A DNA stretch of 64,000 nt. Origin: Citreicoccus inhibens. Its GTDB lineage: Bacteria > Myxococcota > Myxococcia > Myxococcales > Myxococcaceae. Of this stretch, positions 14,572 through 23,766 are shown piece by piece. Location: the NCBI RefSeq assembly GCF_019039035.1, contig NZ_JAHNZT010000035.1:1-64000 (forward strand), written 5' to 3'. Position 1 is the stretch's first letter; every line of letters starts with the position of its first letter. The translations under genes were made by a program, and so were the position numbers. Under the pieces are notes generated by a model. It made no database searches. It was not told the DNA's origin and saw only the letters and a program-made list of their open reading frames with translations.

Positions 14572-16422
14572 TCAGTAGGGCTGCAGGTCGTACTCGGCCT
14601 GCAGCTTGGAGATGAGCCCGTCCACCACCGCGGTGTCCGAGGTATGGAAGCCCCACGTCGCCCCGCGCCCGCGCCGCTGGATGAGCGCGTAGGCCGCCGT
14701 CTCCGACAACCACAGGATGAACTCGTGGCGGGTGACGCGCTCGTCGCCCTCCAGGAACACCGGCGTGAGCGCGGGATGCGACTCCAGGTCGCCGCGCCGC
14801 CCCAGCAGGTAGATGCGCGAGGCCATGTCCGGCGGCGCAGACTCCAACCCCGAGGCGATGGGCAGCTCCGCGCGAATCTCGGGCCCGCCCACGTACAAGA
14901 GTCCACGCTGACCTGGATCCCGAACCAGCTCCCGCGCGATCTCTGCCTGAAGCTCGTCGAAGAGCACGTCCGCGACCTTGCCCCGGCGGCTCGGCTCGGC
15001 GCGCTCATCCGAGGGCAGGCGCGGGCTGGTGGGGTTGCCGAGCAGCAGGTCCACCTCGTCCCAGAACGGCAGACCATCCAGCATCAACCGCCGCTGCAAC
15101 GACGCGCGCCGCTCGTCCATGCGACGGCGGCAGCGGTGCACCAGCTCGTCGAAGTCCTCTCCGTCCTTGGGGAACGTGCTCGCCCCGCCCACCAGCGCGA
15201 GCGGCAGGCGCTGCTCCACCTCCTGCGCCTCGGGCTCCTCGCGCACCGCGGCCACCGCGCGCCGCACGAACATCATCGCGCCGAAGAAATCCGTCTCGGG
15301 CAGGAGCAAGTAGAACTCCTGGTCGCTCGCCTTCGCGATGACGTCCGAGTCTCGGATGATCCGGCTGAGCGCGCGGATGATGCCGCGCACGGCCTTCTTC
15401 GCCTCCGCCGCCCCCAGGCGCACGCGCACCAGCGGGAGGTTGTCCACGGAGAACGTCAGCAGGGAGAACGTCCGCCCGTAGCGACGCGCCTTGTAGATCT
15501 CCTTGGAGGCGTAGTCGGTGAAGTAGCTGAGGTTGTACGCGGCAGTGTCTCGGTCCCTCAGCCCCAGGCGCTGGAGCGCCAGGAGGCGGCGACCGTTCTT
15601 CACGCCCACCGCGGCGAAGTCCGCCAGCAGCTTCGCGTCGCGCGTGTTCTCGGGACGGAAGTCGCCCGCGAGCGGGTCGCTCATCTGCGCCAGTCCCATG
15701 ACCTCGCCCGAGGCGATCAACGGGACATAGAGCACCATCGAGCGCTCATCGCGCGCCACCCAAGGCTGGGCCTCGCGCAAGCGGCCGGAGAGCGGGCCCT
15801 CGGGGCTCATCTTCTCGGCGAGGAACTGCTTGTCGAGCAGGCCCCGGTACGCGCGCAGCACCAGGTCGCCGCGATCATCGATGACCCACAGCGCGGCGCT
15901 CTGCGCGTCGCACACCGCGGACAGGTCCGCGATGATGCGCTCCTGAAGCCACTCCAAGTCCGGATGGGACAGCAGCTCCAGGCAGCGCTGGTGCAGGTTG
16001 TGGAAGCGCGCGAACTCCAGGTTCTCGTCGCGCAGCTGGGCACGCTCGCGCCGGAGCTGCGCGCGCTCCAGGGCCCGGTCCACCGCGAGCAGCAGGTCGG
16101 CCTCGTCCACCGGCTTGGTGAGACAGTCCGCCACGCCTGCGCGCAGGGCCGTCTCCGAGCCCTTCACGTCGGAGCGCTGGCTGACGAGGATGACCTCCTG
16201 GTCCGGGTCGCGCTCGCGCAGGCGCGCGGTGAGCGCGAAGCCGTCCACGCCCGGCATGACGACGTCGGTGATGACGAGGTCGAAGGCGGCGCGCGCCACC
16301 TCCTGCAACGCCATCGTGGCGTTCTCCACCGCGACCACACGGTGCCCCCGGCGGGACAGCATGTCGCTGGCGAGCTGACGGAAGAACAGGTCGTCGTCGA
16401 CGACGAGGATGGGACCGGCCAC
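14572..16422 (-). CDS. Receiver-GAF-degenerate GGDEF protein
   Basis: A protein of 616 residues from the GTG at 16422 (AGPILVVDDD follows). Residues 1-120 are a receiver domain with phospho-acceptor D53 in ITDVVMPG and Lys in LTKPVDEAD. A GAF-like domain comes next (about 150-280), then a GGDEF-like domain. The signature that should read GGDEF is SDQEF at 366-370, so both catalytic glycines and the metal-binding Asp are lost. Diguanylate cyclase activity is therefore unlikely; a binding or scaffold role is more plausible. The C-terminal 170 residues are not assigned. An earlier in-frame ATG exists but would overlap dapF. The partner downstream is the PATAN response regulator. Confidence 0.85.
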   Translation of the reverse strand: MAGPILVVDDDLFFRQLASDMLSRRGHRVVAVENATMALQEVARAAFDLVITDVVMPGVDGFALTARLRERDPDQEVILVSQRSDVKGSETALRAGVADCLTKPVDEADLLLAVDRALERAQLRRERAQLRDENLEFARFHNLHQRCLELLSHPDLEWLQERIIADLSAVCDAQSAALWVIDDRGDLVLRAYRGLLDKQFLAEKMSPEGPLSGRLREAQPWVARDERSMVLYVPLIASGEVMGLAQMSDPLAGDFRPENTRDAKLLADFAAVGVKNGRRLLALQRLGLRDRDTAAYNLSYFTDYASKEIYKARRYGRTFSLLTFSVDNLPLVRVRLGAAEAKKAVRGIIRALSRIIRDSDVIAKASDQEFYLLLPETDFFGAMMFVRRAVAAVREEPEAQEVEQRLPLALVGGASTFPKDGEDFDELVHRCRRRMDERRASLQRRLMLDGLPFWDEVDLLLGNPTSPRLPSDERAEPSRRGKVADVLFDELQAEIARELVRDPGQRGLLYVGGPEIRAELPIASGLESAPPDMASRIYLLGRRGDLESHPALTPVFLEGDERVTRHEFILWLSETAAYALIQRRGRGATWGFHTSDTAVVDGLISKLQAEYDLQPY

Positions 16423-16456
16423 GGAGCTCGGAATCGAGAGGAAGGGAGCCCGGAGG

Positions 16457-17311
16457 TTACTGGCCCGTGGGAAGGGCCACAACGCCTTCGAAGACGAAGG
16501 CCACCGGCCCACGGAGGCGGATGTCGGACAGGTCGGCCGGCACCTGGATGCCCAGGTCGCCACCCGGCAGGGTCACGCGCAGCCAGGCATCCGCTGGCAG
16601 CCGCCGCGCCAGCACCGCCGCCACCGCGGACGCACACGCCCCGGTGCCGCACGCCTGAGTCAACCCGCAGCCCCGCTCCCACACCACCACGGTGAGCCCA
16701 TCGGACTCGACTCGGACGAACTCCACGTTGGTGCGGTCCGGGAAGGATGGATGGACCTCCAGGATCGGCCCCTTGAGCGGCGCATCCGAGAGCGGCTGAT
16801 CCAACAGCACGAGGTGCGGATTGCCCATGCTCACCGCGGTCCCCGCCACCAAGTCCGCGTGGCCCGGCACCGCTGCGCCCACGAAGGGGGTGCCTGTCAC
16901 GCCCGAGGGCAGGTTGGGCGCCACGAGCCGCGCGGGGCCCATGGAGATGTCCACCTCCACCACGCCGCTCGCGACGTAGCCGGGGACGCACCGGAGCACT
17001 CCGGCCCCCGTCTCCACGTCGAGCCACTCGGGGCGCTCCCCGGAGTGATCCACCAGGTACTTCACGGCGCAGCGCAGGCCGTTGCCGCACATCTCCGCGA
17101 TGCTGCCATCCGCGTTGTGCACGACCATCCGCGCCATGCCGCGCGAGGAAGGAAGCAGGGAGAGCACCCCGTCCGCGCCAACCCCCAGGCGCCGGTCGCA
17201 GAGCCATCGCGACGTGTGCGCATCGATGTCCTGGCCCGTGCGGCGACGGTCCAGCACGACGAAGTCATTGCCCAGGCCCTGGTACTTGAAGATGCGCTCG
17301 CGTGCGTCCAC
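16457..17311 (-). CDS. dapF: Diaminopimelate epimerase
   Basis: DapF converts LL- to meso-diaminopimelate for lysine and peptidoglycan synthesis. The 284-residue product has the normal family length. Both catalytic cysteines are present: C75 in MCGNGLRC and C221 in QACGTGAC, matching the usual spacing. The N-terminal FKYQGLGNDFVV signature is clear. The start is a GTG at 17311. It lies 24 bp downstream of the giant coiled-coil gene and 34 bp upstream of the receiver-GAF gene, all on one strand, so the four genes may share a transcript. Confidence 0.97.
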   Translation of the reverse strand: MDARERIFKYQGLGNDFVVLDRRRTGQDIDAHTSRWLCDRRLGVGADGVLSLLPSSRGMARMVVHNADGSIAEMCGNGLRCAVKYLVDHSGERPEWLDVETGAGVLRCVPGYVASGVVEVDISMGPARLVAPNLPSGVTGTPFVGAAVPGHADLVAGTAVSMGNPHLVLLDQPLSDAPLKGPILEVHPSFPDRTNVEFVRVESDGLTVVVWERGCGLTQACGTGACASAVAAVLARRLPADAWLRVTLPGGDLGIQVPADLSDIRLRGPVAFVFEGVVALPTGQ

Positions 17312-17335: not shown

Positions 17336-20300
17336 TCATTCCCGCTCGCCCGCTTTCTTGGTCGGGGTGGGAGGCAGGTCCAACGCGGGCACCGCGGCCC
17401 GCGGCTTGGACGCGGCCGGGCCCGGCGCCGGGCGCTGCGGGGCGTCTCGCGGGGGGGCTGCGGGGCCTTGAGCGCGCAGGGTCGCCAGCTCGGTCTCCTG
17501 TGCGGCGACCTTGTCCTGGAGCGACTCAATCAGGGTCTGGAGCTGCTCCATCTCCGCGGCCATCTCCAGGACGGCCTCGGGAGGCTGGGCGGCGGCCTTG
17601 AGGGACTCCACCGTGCCGAGCAGCTCGGCGCGCTCGGTCTCCAGCGTTTGGGCCAGGGCCCGCGTTGAAGACAGCTCCGAGTGAAGCGCCGAGAGCTGCG
17701 CCGAGGAGTCCCCCTCACGAGAGGACCGCTCGCGCGTCTGCTCCAGGGTCTGGGCAAGCTTCTCGCGCTCGGCCCGCTCCGCGTCGAGCAGCCGCACGGC
17801 ATCCACGGACGCGGTCTCCAAGGCACTCACGCGCCCTTCCAAGCGGATGCGGGCAGCACGAGCGATGGTGAGGTCCGACTGGAGGCGCTCACGTTCGGAG
17901 GTGAGCGTCGTGCGCTCGGCCTCCGCCCGTCGAGCCTGCGCCTCCGCGTCGGCGGCGGCCTGGGACAGCTCCGCGACCCGGGTGTCGAGGGCGGAGCGCT
18001 GCGACGTGAGCGCGGAGTGGGCCTCGGCGGCTTGAGCCGAGAGTTCCGCGAGCCGGGCCTCATGCGCGGCCCGCTCCGACTCAGCGCGAGCCGTCAGCGC
18101 CGCGAGTCGTGCCTCCACGTCCCGCACTTCGGACGAAGAACGAGCCGTCGTCTCGGTGAGCCGAGACTCCCACTCCGTCTGCTGCGCTGAAGCCAGGGCC
18201 TCCTGCTCCGCGAGCCGCGTCTCCCACTCCGTCTTCCGCGCTGAAGCCAGGGCCTCCTGCTCCGCGAGCCGCGTGTCCCACTCCATCTTCTGCGCTGAAG
18301 CCAGGGCCTCCTGCTCCGCGCGCCGCGTCTCCCACTCGGCCTTCTCCGCCGAGGTACGGGCGCCCAGCTCCGCGAGCCGCGCTTCCAGCTCCGCCTTGTC
18401 GGACGTGGACCGAGACACCTGCTCCGCGAAGCGCGCCTCCTGCTCCGCGCTCAGGTCGGCCAGCTTCGATTCCAGGGCCGCGGTGCGCTCGCGTTCGGCC
18501 AGAGCGGACTCGGTGGCACGCTGGACTTCCACACGCGCGGCCTCGGCATCGGAGCGAGCGGACTCCAGCGCGGTGCGCTCGGCCTCCAGCGAGGACTCTA
18601 GATTGTTGGCCTTGCCGGCGAAGCGCCGCGCGGTCTCGAGCTGAACCACGAGCAACTCGGCGTGCTCGCGCGTGGCGGAGAGGCGGTCTTGCGCATCCAC
18701 CAACTCCGCGTCCAACCGCGCGATGTGAATGCCGCGCTCGTGCAGCGCCGCATGGGCCCGTTGCAGCTCGGTCCCCAGCCGCATCAACTCCTGACGGGTC
18801 GCGCCCAGGTGGGCCAGCTCGCTCCGCGCACCAACCAACTCCTGGTCGCGGAGCGCGAGCTGCTGGAGCGCTTCCTCGGAGTCCTGCTGCCGCCGCTCTG
18901 CACGGGACAGCGAGCCCTCCAGCTCCGCCTCCAGCGACACCAGCCGAGCACGCGCCTCCGTCAGCGTCTGCTCGCGAGTGCCCGCGGTCTCCGTGAGCCG
19001 CTGAGCCCGCAGCTCCTCCTCGCGCAGCTTCTCCTGCAAGGACGCAACGAGCTTCTCCTGCTCCGCGAGCGACGACTCCAGCGTCTCGCGGCGAGTCTCT
19101 GCGGAGGCCTGCGCGGCGCGGGTCTCCGAGAGCTGCGACTCCCAATGCGAGCGCTGCTCCTGGACAGTCCCTTCGGCCCAGGCCCGCTCCGCCTCCAGCC
19201 GCTCCAGGCTCGCGCGCAGTTCTGTCTCCTGCGCCTCGGCGGCGGCGCGATGCTCCTCCAGCACGCGCTCCGCCGCGCTCAGTCGAGACGACAGCTCCGC
19301 GGCTTCAGTACGAAGCGTCTCCAACTCAGCCAGGGTCCGCGCCTGAGTCTCGCGAGTCTCCGCGAGCGACGCCTCCCCTTGAGCCTGCGCCTCGCGACTC
19401 TGCCGCAGCGAGGACTCGGCCCCGGCGCGAGCCTCGGTCTCCGCGCGCAGCCGCTCCTCGGCCTGCGCGAGCGCCTCCTGCTCCGCGACGAGGCGACGTT
19501 GCGCCTCGGCCAGCCCCGCTTCGCCCGCGTTGCGTCCCAGCCGCTCGGAATCCAGCTCCGCGCGGAGGCGCTCCAATTCGGCCCGAGCCGCCTCGGCCCC
19601 CCCACGAACCTCGGCCAGGGAGGACTCGACCTGCGCCCGGGTCTCGCGCTCGGACGCCAGTGCCTCCCGGGCCTCGACGAGCACGGCCTCCTGCCGGGCC
19701 CGCTCCAGCTCCCCATCGGCCTGGGTCTCGGACAGCGACGCCTTGATTCGGGCAAGGGCCTCGCGCTCCGACGTCAGCGCGCTCCGCGCCTCGGCGAGCG
19801 AAGCCTCCACTTCGGAGCGAGCCCCACGCTCGGCCTCCAGCGCGGACCGGGCCGCACCGAGTTCCTCGTGCACCGCGCCCAGCGCCACGCGCGCTTCACC
19901 CAGCGAGACCTCGTTCGCCGCGCGAACCTCACGCTCAGCCGCCAGCACCGCCTGCGTCTCGGACAGCTCCTGGTGCGTGGACTCCTGCGTCGCCCGGACC
20001 GAGGCGAGCGCAGCCTGTTCCGCCGCCAGCGCCGCGCGAACCTCTGCGAGCGAGGCCTCCGCCTCCGCCCGAGCCTCGCGCTCACGCTCCAGCGCCGCGC
20101 CCGCCTCACGAAGCGAGACCGCACGCCCCTCCTGCTCGGACTGCAGCGCGACCTGGGTCTCGGCCAGCGCCTCCACCGAGCGAGCGTGCGCGTCCTGGGC
20201 CGAGGCAAGCGCGGCCCGAGCCTCCGCGAGCGACTCCTCCGCCCGCGCGCGCCGAGCCTGTTCCTGGGCCAGCGCGCCTTCGGCCTCCTCACGCAAGCGC

Positions 20301-22849
20301 ACCAGCGCCTCATCGGTGCCGATGGCGCGAGCCTGGATCTCCGAGAACGTGGCCTCCAACCGAGCCCGGTGCTCCCGCTCGGTCTCCAGGGCCGACCGCG
20401 TCTCCGTCAGCGACAGGTCCGTCCGAGTCCGGTGCGCGCGCTCCTCATCCAGCGTCGCCTTCGTCTCGGCAAACGAAGCCTCCAGCGCCTCGCGCTGGGT
20501 CCGCTCGGCCTCCAGCGCCGAGTCCACCCGGGCCCGCTGCTCGCGCTCCGTCTGCCACTGGGCCTGAGTGTCCGCGAGCGCGGCCTCCCAGCGAGCCCGC
20601 CGCTCCTCCTCGGCCGCGAGCGCCTCCCGGGTCTTCGCCAGCTCCGCGTCCGACAGTTCCCGCCGAGCCTGCTCGGCATCGAGCGCGCCCTGGACGTCCT
20701 CGCGCTCCAGGCGCTCCAACTCCAGCGTCTCGCGAACATCGGCGAGCGCCGACTCCAGCTCCACCCGGGTCTGTTGCTGGGCCTCGCCACTCGCCGTGGC
20801 GCCCGCCAGCCGCCGCTCGGTCTCGGCGAGAGATTCCCCCAGCCGGGTCAGCGATGCGTCCGCGGTCTTGCGCGCCTGAGTCTCGCGCTCCAGCTCCTCG
20901 CTCGCGAGCGCCGACAGCGCCTCGGCCGACTCCAGCGCGCGCCGCGTGGTCTCCAGCTCCGCGCGCGCCTCGCGCAGCGCCGCGTCCACCCGCGCGGCCT
21001 GCTCCAACGCCACGACGAGCCGAGCCTCCAGCGCCTCGTGCGCCTCGAACGATGCGCGCCGCAGCGCGCTCAGCTCCTCCTCCCCTGCCTCCCGGGCCCG
21101 AGTCGCGAGCGCCCGCTCCTCGCCCAGCGCCTGCTCGAACCGAGCCCGCTCCGAGTCCAGCTCTCGCGTCCGGGACTCACCCGTCTGTTCGAGCAGCCCC
21201 AGCCGCTCACGGGCCGCCTGCAAGGCCTCCTCGAGAGACGCGGCCAGCGCCCGCGCCCGGGCCTCGTCGGCCGTGCGCGCCTCCAGCGACTCGCGAAGCT
21301 GGGCCTCGGCCTCGCGCGTGAAGGCGACCTCCGTCTCCAACCCGCGCAGGGTGGCCTCGCGAGCCTCCAGCCGCGACTCCGCCTCCTGCCGAGCCCCTTC
21401 CGCGGCGGACATGCGCAGGTGCGCCTCGGCCAGCTCGCGGTGCGCCCGCGCCAGCTCCGCCTCCTTCGCGGGAACGGAGTCGCCCGCGGCCCGGACGGCT
21501 TCCTCGGCGCGGGTCACCTGCTCCTTGAGGTGCTCCACGGCCGCGAGCGCCGCCGAGTACTGCTCGGCGATGCGCAGCTCGCGCTCACGCGCGGCCTCCG
21601 CCTGCCGGCGCCGAGCCTCCGCCGCGTCCAGGGCGCGCTCCGCCGCCAGCCGGTCCTTCTCCCGGTCGATGCGCAGGGTCCCCTGCTCATCCTGAAGCTC
21701 GCGCACCTGGGCATAGGCCTGGGTCAACCGCTCGCGCGTCTCTTCCAGTGAGGAGGCCAGCTCCTCACGCCGCGCCCGCTCCAGCCGCACCGACTCCTGG
21801 GCCGCCAGCACCTGCACGCCCGCGTCGGCCTGGGCCCGCTGCGCCGCCTCCACATCCAAGCGGTGCGCCGAGAGCCGCCGGTCCGCATCCGCCAGCCGCT
21901 CCGTCGCGACCTGCAGCTCCAGCTCGCGCCGCCGAAGTCGTCCGCTCAGCTCATCCCGCTCGCGCGCGGACTCCGCGCTGCCCCGCGCCTGCTCCAACTG
22001 CGCGGTGAGACGCGCCACGTCCTGCCGCGCCACCTCCAGCGCGGGCTGCAGCGCCGCCACCTCGGCCTCGCGGTCGCCCGCCTCCGCCCGGACCTTGGTC
22101 AACGCCTCCTTCAGCCGACCGGCGCGCTCCTCCCAGGACTTCGCCCGGGCCGCGACGTCATCCAGCTTCCCGCGCGTGAAGGCCAGCGGCTCGGGCGGCA
22201 GCTGCACCCACGTCGGGTCCACCACCCGCGCGGGCTCCTGACCGGCCACCACGACGAAGTAGGCCGCCTCGCCACCCGTGACGAGCGAGCCGTCCACCTG
22301 GAGCCCCTCGCCCCGCTCGAACGCGAGCTGGTAGCCCAGCACGGGGGACTGGGTGGCCACCTCCACCTGGGGGAAGTGGACGGAGAGGGCGTCCAGCGCC
22401 TGGCCGAACGTGGGCGGCACGCCCTCCTCCGGCTCCATGAGTTGCGTGAGCGCCAGCCCCGCGATGTTGCGCAGCCCCCCCACCAGGTACCCCTGGCGAG
22501 ACACCAGCCGCGCCAGCTCGGCGAGCAGCTCCGGCGCTCGGACATAGGGCGCCAGGTCCGCCACCAGCACCACGTCGAAGCTGCCCGGCTCCAGGTCGTC
22601 GTAGATGTTGGCGCGGAAGCGCAGTCCCGGCGCGACGGGGCCCTTCTGGGCCGCCTCCACCGCGGAGATGTCCGAGTCGCACGCCACCACCGCGCGAGCG
22701 CCGCGCTCCAGGAGGAAGCGCGCGCTCTCGCCCCCCGTGGAGGCCACCGCGTCCACTTCGAGCACCCTGCGACGCGCGAAGAGGCTCTCCGCGAAGATGT
22801 ACCGGGGCAGCAGTTCACTGGGCCCCATGCGGCGGAATGTGGGATGCAT
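17336..22849 (-). CDS. Methyltransferase-like domain fused to a giant coiled coil
   Basis: From the ATG at 22849 the product has 1837 residues. Roughly the first 225 look like a Rossmann-fold SAM-dependent methyltransferase: a motif I-like strand and turn (RRVLEVDAVASTGGES), an acidic motif II (VVACDSD) and a motif IV-like FDVVLVADL. Nearly everything else is Glu/Ala/Arg/Leu heptads, a continuous coiled coil of about 1550 residues. It contains a stretch of exact 18-residue repeats and ends in a Pro/Ala/Lys tail. There is no signal peptide or membrane segment. Cytoskeleton-like or polarity scaffolds of myxobacteria (AglZ, FrzS) also join a globular head to a long coiled coil, but theirs is a receiver-type head; any functional link is inference. 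A start at the second ATG, seven codons on, is possible. Confidence 0.85.
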   Translation of the reverse strand: MHPTFRRMGPSELLPRYIFAESLFARRRVLEVDAVASTGGESARFLLERGARAVVACDSDISAVEAAQKGPVAPGLRFRANIYDDLEPGSFDVVLVADLAPYVRAPELLAELARLVSRQGYLVGGLRNIAGLALTQLMEPEEGVPPTFGQALDALSVHFPQVEVATQSPVLGYQLAFERGEGLQVDGSLVTGGEAAYFVVVAGQEPARVVDPTWVQLPPEPLAFTRGKLDDVAARAKSWEERAGRLKEALTKVRAEAGDREAEVAALQPALEVARQDVARLTAQLEQARGSAESARERDELSGRLRRRELELQVATERLADADRRLSAHRLDVEAAQRAQADAGVQVLAAQESVRLERARREELASSLEETRERLTQAYAQVRELQDEQGTLRIDREKDRLAAERALDAAEARRRQAEAARERELRIAEQYSAALAAVEHLKEQVTRAEEAVRAAGDSVPAKEAELARAHRELAEAHLRMSAAEGARQEAESRLEAREATLRGLETEVAFTREAEAQLRESLEARTADEARARALAASLEEALQAARERLGLLEQTGESRTRELDSERARFEQALGEERALATRAREAGEEELSALRRASFEAHEALEARLVVALEQAARVDAALREARAELETTRRALESAEALSALASEELERETQARKTADASLTRLGESLAETERRLAGATASGEAQQQTRVELESALADVRETLELERLEREDVQGALDAEQARRELSDAELAKTREALAAEEERRARWEAALADTQAQWQTEREQRARVDSALEAERTQREALEASFAETKATLDEERAHRTRTDLSLTETRSALETEREHRARLEATFSEIQARAIGTDEALVRLREEAEGALAQEQARRARAEESLAEARAALASAQDAHARSVEALAETQVALQSEQEGRAVSLREAGAALEREREARAEAEASLAEVRAALAAEQAALASVRATQESTHQELSETQAVLAAEREVRAANEVSLGEARVALGAVHEELGAARSALEAERGARSEVEASLAEARSALTSEREALARIKASLSETQADGELERARQEAVLVEAREALASERETRAQVESSLAEVRGGAEAARAELERLRAELDSERLGRNAGEAGLAEAQRRLVAEQEALAQAEERLRAETEARAGAESSLRQSREAQAQGEASLAETRETQARTLAELETLRTEAAELSSRLSAAERVLEEHRAAAEAQETELRASLERLEAERAWAEGTVQEQRSHWESQLSETRAAQASAETRRETLESSLAEQEKLVASLQEKLREEELRAQRLTETAGTREQTLTEARARLVSLEAELEGSLSRAERRQQDSEEALQQLALRDQELVGARSELAHLGATRQELMRLGTELQRAHAALHERGIHIARLDAELVDAQDRLSATREHAELLVVQLETARRFAGKANNLESSLEAERTALESARSDAEAARVEVQRATESALAERERTAALESKLADLSAEQEARFAEQVSRSTSDKAELEARLAELGARTSAEKAEWETRRAEQEALASAQKMEWDTRLAEQEALASARKTEWETRLAEQEALASAQQTEWESRLTETTARSSSEVRDVEARLAALTARAESERAAHEARLAELSAQAAEAHSALTSQRSALDTRVAELSQAAADAEAQARRAEAERTTLTSERERLQSDLTIARAARIRLEGRVSALETASVDAVRLLDAERAEREKLAQTLEQTRERSSREGDSSAQLSALHSELSSTRALAQTLETERAELLGTVESLKAAAQPPEAVLEMAAEMEQLQTLIESLQDKVAAQETELATLRAQGPAAPPRDAPQRPAPGPAASKPRAAVPALDLPPTPTKKAGERE
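18176..18337 (-). repeat. Three tandem 54-bp units inside the coiled-coil gene
   Basis: Three consecutive 54-bp copies encode 18-residue units of the form EWETRLAEQEALASAQ.. with one to three changes per copy. A diverged fourth copy starts at 18175. The spacing is exact (EWE/EWD codons at 18337, 18283, 18229 and 18175). The repeat is part of the coding sequence and keeps the frame. Eighteen residues is not a multiple of seven, so it shifts the heptad register unless skips compensate. Confidence 0.9.
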
Positions 22850-22953: not shown

Positions 22954-23766
22954 ATGAACGTGAACTCACCCCAGGGATTTGGCCACCGGGCGCGCCGCGC
23001 CTTCATGCGCACCGTCACCCTCCTCGTCATCTTGACGCTGGGGGTGGGCGTCCTCTTCCTGCTCGGGAAGATCAACGCCCGGACCTTCACGCTCACCGTG
23101 GACAACGGCGCCCTGGTGGTCATGAAGGGCCGCAACCTCCCCACGGGCGCCGCGCCCTACCAGCCCGGCGACGCGCGGCTCGCGGACGCCTACGCCCCCA
23201 TCCCCCTGGAGGGCCAGGACGCCACCCTCCTCACCCTCCAGAGCTACTCCGAGCGCGACGAACTGGACCGCGCCCTGTTCCCCCTCCTGGAGTCCCTGGC
23301 TCGGCCCCGCATCGCCTCGGATGAACCCGCCCGCGTGGACCGGGGCCTGTACTACCTGCGCCGCGCCGAGAAGCTCTCCGGCCTCACCGACGAGCAGCGC
23401 CGCTCGCTCCAGGGGATGCTCGCGGACGTGGCCTACTACCAGGCCCGCCAGAAGCTCGAGGACGCCCGGCGCCTCGTCTCGGAGAGCCTGGCCCAGCTCA
23501 AGCTCGCCGCCGAGAGCCAGAACCGCCACGCCCGCAGCGCCAACCAGATGCTGTCCACCGTGGGCCCCCCGGCCCGCGACCTGGAAGAAGCCCTCCGCCG
23601 CGCGGTGCACACCGAAAGCGGCCCCCAGGAGGCCCAGGACGGCGCCACGGCCCCGACGCGTCAGGTCTCCCCCTCGCCCCAGCCCCCCACCTCGCCCAGC
23701 GCTCCCGTGCCCGCCCAGGGCCCTGGAGCCCCCGCCCAGCCCCCGGACGCGGGCCCCACTCCCTGA
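22954..23766 (+). CDS. Single-pass membrane protein with helical and Pro-rich parts
   Basis: A protein of 270 residues from the ATG at 22954, with an AGGAGGG-like site eight bases upstream. One membrane segment lies at about 19-39 (TLLVILTLGVGVLFLLG). A small beta-rich region follows (FTLTVDNGALVVMKGRNLP), then an Ala/Leu/Arg helical region of about 100 residues and a Pro/Ala/Gln-rich tail. It resembles proteins sometimes labelled IF-2-like in myxobacteria only because of the Pro/Ala tail; I assign no function. It is divergent from the giant coiled-coil gene with about 100 bp between starts, so the two may share control. Confidence 0.65.
   Translation: MNVNSPQGFGHRARRAFMRTVTLLVILTLGVGVLFLLGKINARTFTLTVDNGALVVMKGRNLPTGAAPYQPGDARLADAYAPIPLEGQDATLLTLQSYSERDELDRALFPLLESLARPRIASDEPARVDRGLYYLRRAEKLSGLTDEQRRSLQGMLADVAYYQARQKLEDARRLVSESLAQLKLAAESQNRHARSANQMLSTVGPPARDLEEALRRAVHTESGPQEAQDGATAPTRQVSPSPQPPTSPSAPVPAQGPGAPAQPPDAGPTP

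Follow-up and report, generated by a model that had tools for sequence, protein, structure and literature searches.

The window (the whole 64,000-nucleotide stretch of DNA analysed here) belongs to a 9.05 Mb genome whose closest named relatives in the tree are Corallococcus and Myxococcus, in keeping with the myxobacterial setting assumed by an earlier, sequence-only reading of the locus. On its minus strand it carries a single frame that runs from an ATG at 22849 to a stop at 17336 and encodes a protein of 1837 aa, with a methyltransferase-like head followed by a coiled coil. The earlier reading had placed the gene correctly and left its strand unstated; the minus strand is favoured because its GC by codon position is 0.81/0.52/0.88 over 17336-22849. 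A plus-strand open reading frame of 1029 aa within the same interval failed this codon-composition filter and was discarded as an antisense artefact. An alternative GTG start at 22969 would give a protein of 1877 aa, but the ATG at 22849 is preferred because a frame opened by the GTG would run into the divergent gene, which starts at 22954, and because the proteins of relatives start at the same Met. No NCBIfam model gives the protein a name, and it was not found in the literature searched, which was open-access only, so that this absence is weak evidence. The features of the locus are as follows, with the evidence for each in brackets.

17336..22849, minus strand: whole gene, methyltransferase-like head and coiled coil, 1837 aa (ORF reading, codon composition)
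22175..22849, minus strand: head, residues 1-225, class I SAM-methyltransferase fold (Pfam, AlphaFold model, Foldseek, VIA)
22727..22765, minus strand: atypical motif I, residues 29-41, VLEVDAVASTGGE, with Asp33 where most homologues have Gly (alignment)
22676..22678, minus strand: Asp58, the acid closing strand 2, at the ribose-contact position (alignment)
21560..22174, minus strand: conserved neck that opens the coil, residues 226-430 (conservation, dN/dS 0.06-0.32)
17471..21559, minus strand: variable-length rod, residues 431-1793, heptad coiled coil (periodicity, lengths in relatives)
18158..18448, minus strand: 54-bp (18-residue) tandem repeats in the rod, residues ~1467-1563 (repeat detection)
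17339..17470, minus strand: proline-rich C-terminal tail, residues 1794-1837, ~45 residues (sequence, periodicity)
16457..17311, minus strand: dapF, 24 bp beyond the stop codon of the head-coil gene
22954..23766, plus strand: divergent neighbour, encoding a 270-aa protein with a single membrane helix at the N-terminus followed by a helical domain (structure model, synteny)

The order with dapF behind the head-coil gene is the same in Myxococcus, Corallococcus, and Pyxidicoccus. Beyond dapF, the window encodes a response-regulator diguanylate cyclase and then a DUF4388 response regulator, and no gliding genes are found among the neighbours. In several families, diguanylate cyclases with receiver, FHA, and GAF architectures lie within ~10 kb of the gene (window 14572-16563, minus strand; L048 10640-11509; L054 7883-8893; L058 11637-12695), a proximity that may be due to chance.

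A methyltransferase fold with an eroding SAM site

The fold search of the head that had been proposed from the sequence was run, and it returned the predicted Rossmann-type methyltransferase fold, on which Pfam, AlphaFold, Foldseek, and VIA agree. Methyltransf_11 matches residues 36-123 with an E-value of 5.5e-6, a match that passes its curated cut-off. An AlphaFold model built on 31 related heads (pLDDT 71, pTM 0.75, with core blocks above 80 and a weaker C-terminal third) has the class I topology, a seven-stranded sheet with a reversed C-terminal hairpin; the strands lie at residues 28-32, 53-58, 76-80, 91-96, 116-128, 161-168, and 195-203. With this model, the top Foldseek matches were ToxA and UbiG (E 6e-8), and VIA-align superposed the head on PDB 6mro with a Z of 15.5 over 168 residues at 3.2 A. 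Whereas these three class I methyltransferases share the fold of the head (Z 14-15), their identity to it is only 13-19%, and the head does not have their GxGxG motif.

Motif I had been called atypical in the sequence-only reading, and the alignment bears this out: the glycine-rich GxGxG is absent from the window head, where VLEVDAVASTGGESA stands instead, and Asp33 takes the place of a Gly. The loop, VLEV-D/G-A-V-A-S-T-x-G-x-S-A, is ~3 residues longer than what we take to be the corresponding motif of UbiG. Scoring of the SAM site across 84 aligned heads, a check that the same reading had recommended, showed that E31, D58, and D98 are mostly kept and that the motif I Gly is lost in part. Glu31 is invariant, position 58 is D in 78 heads and D or E in 80, and Asp98 is nearly invariant; the window head retains both Asp58 and Asp98, so that a ligand site may still exist. 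At position 33, 50 of the 84 heads have Gly, 32 have Asp, and 2 have Leu. According to the tree, all Asp33 heads fall within the Myxococcus/Corallococcus/Pyxidicoccus/Hyalangium/Archangium group, and the alignment places the change from Gly33 to Asp in one clade, to which both the window species and M. xanthus belong. Family f9 has lost the acid of strand 2, and genus g32 of family f3 (L058, L063) has lost both this acid and the motif I Gly; despite this loss, head and coil are retained in L058 and L063, and the membrane gene is still their neighbour. Near-canonical forms of motif I, such as LELGCADGIG, are seen in several homologues from outside the order.

Since the motif has decayed in three lineages while the domain was kept, a role other than catalysis is suggested. 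This repeated erosion with retention points, short of proof, to a non-catalytic function, and the head probably serves a rod-like scaffold as its module for docking or sensing; the earlier guess that it binds rather than catalyses is thereby favoured. That the head is instead an active methyltransferase seems unlikely. Such an enzyme would tolerate the longer motif I loop and act on a partner protein or an envelope precursor, the coil merely oligomerising or positioning it, as in WbdD. The modelled class I topology with its C-terminal hairpin would suit catalysis, as would the near invariance of E31, D58, and D98, the near-canonical motif I outside the order, and the precedent of WbdD (PMC3482155). 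These points have to be weighed against an Asp at position 33 throughout one clade, whose negative charge, judging from established methyltransferase structure, would face the SAM carboxylate, against the two further lineages that lost the SAM site yet kept head, coil, and neighbours, and against the Methyltransf_25 match, which falls under its cut-off.

A conserved neck and a drifting rod

Over residues 226-1780, the positions of Leu, Ile, Val, Met, and Phe have a periodicity peak at exactly 3.50, with a power of 4.24 versus 1.01 +/- 0.19 in shuffled sequences. The protein had been described as nearly pure heptads to the end; the heptads stand, but they are not quite pure and do not quite reach the end, as the register shifts at places along the coil, the signal weakens in the 18-residue tandem repeat at residues ~1467-1563, and the chain ends in the proline-rich tail. 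Length varies widely in the family, from 358 to 2293 aa with a median of 1787 among 69 complete-frame proteins (a few genomes being counted twice), and the homologue of M. xanthus AM003 has 1871 aa. The coil peak lies at 3.45-3.55 in relatives except the shortest ones, whose coil comprises only ~130-180 residues. All complete-frame relatives carry the frame as one gene, and the splitting of the frame that the sequence-only reading had named as evidence against itself was not seen among them.

Selection differs along the protein. When the window gene was compared with three relatives, dN/dS was 0.11-0.19 for the head, 0.06-0.32 for the neck, and 0.25-0.67 for the middle of the rod, with dS reaching 0.9 in the more distant comparisons. 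Head and neck are under purifying selection and the rod drifts, from which it follows that the specific parts would be head and neck, and the remainder spacer-like. A different view of the rod is that the coil alone forms cytoskeletal filaments resembling intermediate filaments, with the head as cap or regulator. The long heptad stretches of variable length fit this idea, and coiled-coil filament proteins such as FilP are known in bacteria (PMC6599971). However, the sequence yields no readable filament signature and the shortest homologues have just ~130-180 coil residues, which leaves filament formation highly improbable.

Distribution, neighbours, and co-occurrence with gliding genes

What had looked like a strange one-off belongs to a conserved family that reaches beyond Myxococcaceae. 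Almost all genomes of Myxococcaceae have the gene, as a single copy, and strong head matches, of about 1e-90 or better, were obtained from almost all genomes of family f1. At 1e-6, the head profile matches 134 of the 145 genomes of the order, a count in which the weak matches include ordinary methyltransferases; bona fide homologues within the order are found in families f2, f3, f5, f6, and f9. Outside it, homologues are present in f10, f11, f13, f14, f17, f24, f25, and f31, and in other Myxococcota classes. They share the head and a coil of 3.5-residue periodicity, and often a C-terminal peptide like DKTERIxRLTxRLAE. Three loci (L051, L052, L053) have an extra copy with a second head ~40% identical and a shorter coil, in proteins of 403-659 aa. 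In genus g45, the head-coil gene (L136 3499-8936) has a gene for a T2SSE-type ATPase on one side and one for a PilZ-domain protein on the other. A record titled Comamonas sp. KCTC 72670 (BNCN01000006.1, L075) holds a locus that resembles those of Myxococcus and has the gene order of Myxococcaceae complete; the record is probably mislabelled or contaminated.

The divergent neighbour of 270 aa has a confident structure model that matched no fold at E <= 0.001, and its family has no Pfam model. This unnamed family is deeply conserved: within the order, 129 of 145 genomes have it, and it extends to another class. Its main domain is predicted from the charge distribution to be periplasmic. The gene adjoins the head-coil gene divergently in nearly all Myxococcaceae, and in other families of the order it lies upstream in the same direction, as it does directly upstream in a locus of another class (L146, 39% identity). 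This recurrent pairing, together with the persistence of both genes in reduced genomes of 2.1-2.7 Mb (G020, G135, G136), could be taken to mean that the head-coil protein is a general envelope or cell-shape factor, a cytoplasmic rod tethered to the membrane by this single-pass partner (22954-23766) and not concerned with motility. But the membrane gene occurs without the head in f7 (where it lies beside dapF), g37, and g43, and the head without the membrane gene in g45 and f2 (G024). As each occurs alone, adjacency is weak evidence of joint function and may reflect inherited gene order; in addition, the main domain of the partner is the one predicted to be periplasmic. We consider an envelope factor of this kind improbable.

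Other neighbours vary among families. In family f7 (L131, L132, L133, L137), where the head-coil gene is missing, the membrane gene adjoins dapF and a Ser/Thr kinase gene, the kinase being assigned from a Pfam match in L131 and similar starts in L132 and L133. In deeper families, the gene directly downstream of the head-coil gene encodes a probably periplasmic protein in which 6-7 CarboxypepD_reg repeats are joined to a PDZ domain at the C-terminus (L038 9459-11693; L050 8297-10642; L056 6600-8894; L058 6380-8665; L063 2761-5049). The window genome encodes no equivalent of this protein, the matches there covering the PDZ range only. A fixed trio of head, membrane protein, and repeat/PDZ protein was therefore rejected, head and membrane gene also being separable.

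Across the genomes of the order that are at least 90% complete and lie outside Myxococcaceae, the head co-occurs with markers of the glt gliding machinery. Both are present in 19 genomes and neither in 13, with 1 mismatch (Fisher p 2e-8, a value that ignores relatedness and behind which perhaps two to four independent events stand). The events concern f7, f4, f8, and the f5 genera g37 and g43. A genome counted as having a glt marker if GltE (NF033758) passed its cut-off or GltJ (NF033761) reached about 150 bits, the latter threshold having been chosen after the scores were known. In the single mismatch, G054, pieces of GltJ sit at contig ends; the missing head is probably an assembly gap, and a loss of head and GltE within the genus was not counted. 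Of 22 genomes sampled, 21 have PilQ over its cut-off whether or not the head is present, and the neighbouring membrane gene, used as a control, is not associated with glt (p = 1). One Myxococcaceae genome (G002) has GltE and no head. Across the phylum the link weakens: G158, G166, G167, G165, and G157 have GltJ-like matches and no head match at 1e-14. The connection with motility drawn in the sequence-only reading is favoured by correlation.

Proposed role and comparison with known systems

In our preferred reading, held at roughly even confidence, the head-coil protein would be a cytoplasmic rod-like scaffold or tether with a methyltransferase-fold head for docking or ligand sensing, acting at the cell envelope or the gliding apparatus. 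Residues 1-225 would represent a methyltransferase fold recruited for this purpose, probably without catalysis in the window species. Together with the conserved neck (226-430), the head would form the specific, partner-binding end, and the ~1360 coil residues beyond it would be a spacer that self-associates and places few demands on its sequence; the whole coil would measure roughly 230 nm if it were one continuous helix, and a disordered tail would end the rod. The likeliest place of action would be the cell-envelope/gliding apparatus, in the manner of AglZ or FrzS, with a degenerate methyltransferase replacing the degenerate receiver. It is rather doubtful that the protein is, more specifically, a gliding or polarity component whose pseudo-methyltransferase head docks or senses a metabolite and whose rod, hundreds of nanometres long, links a membrane site to a polarity module or the cytoskeleton. 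Kept as a large single-copy protein in almost all Myxococcaceae, among them M. xanthus and relatives with genomes reduced to 2-3 Mb, the family offers a testable candidate for a scaffold, one whose presence coincides with that of the gliding machine. Its members also line up as a natural series that shows the stepwise erosion of a methyltransferase site in a domain that is retained.

Among known coiled-coil proteins, SMC (TIGR02168) resembles the head-coil protein in coil composition only (52 bits versus a cut-off of 567). An SMC-like chromosome protein was rejected, as matches are confined to the coil and neither the ABC-type ATPase head nor the hinge is found. The combination of a methyltransferase head and a coil, regarded as new in the sequence-only reading, has a precedent in WbdD of E. 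coli O9a, in which an N-terminal class I methyltransferase is joined to a kinase and a coiled coil and which terminates O-antigen chains (PMC3482155). WbdD-like proteins also occur in the order (L152-L154), with a methyltransferase/coil/glycosyltransferase-like arrangement and, as read from their sequence, a canonical motif I. The head-coil protein shares the N-terminal class I methyltransferase and the coil with them, but compared with WbdD its coil is longer, its motif I is atypical, and no polysaccharide genes are among its identified neighbours. An O-antigen terminator of the WbdD type was rejected on the last of these grounds, because a Pfam search found no kinase domain, and because the true WbdD-like proteins of the order are separate genes. 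What is notable is therefore not the combination but the length of the rod, the eroding site, and the near-universal conservation of the family.

The closest comparison is with FrzS and AglZ of Myxococcus xanthus, in which a degenerate receiver is N-terminal to a coiled coil; the pseudo-receiver of FrzS functions without phosphorylation, and its coil and tail are required for localisation (PMC1974792). They differ from the head-coil protein in that it has a methyltransferase fold and no receiver fold, and in that the coil of FrzS has 258 residues versus ~1550. Like them, it is read as a cytoplasmic myxobacterial protein with a degenerate head on a coiled coil, and a tail follows its coil as the required C-terminal tail follows that of FrzS. 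It is on this likeness to FrzS, with a degenerate enzyme head, a long self-associating rod, and a disordered tail, that the putative scaffold role rests.
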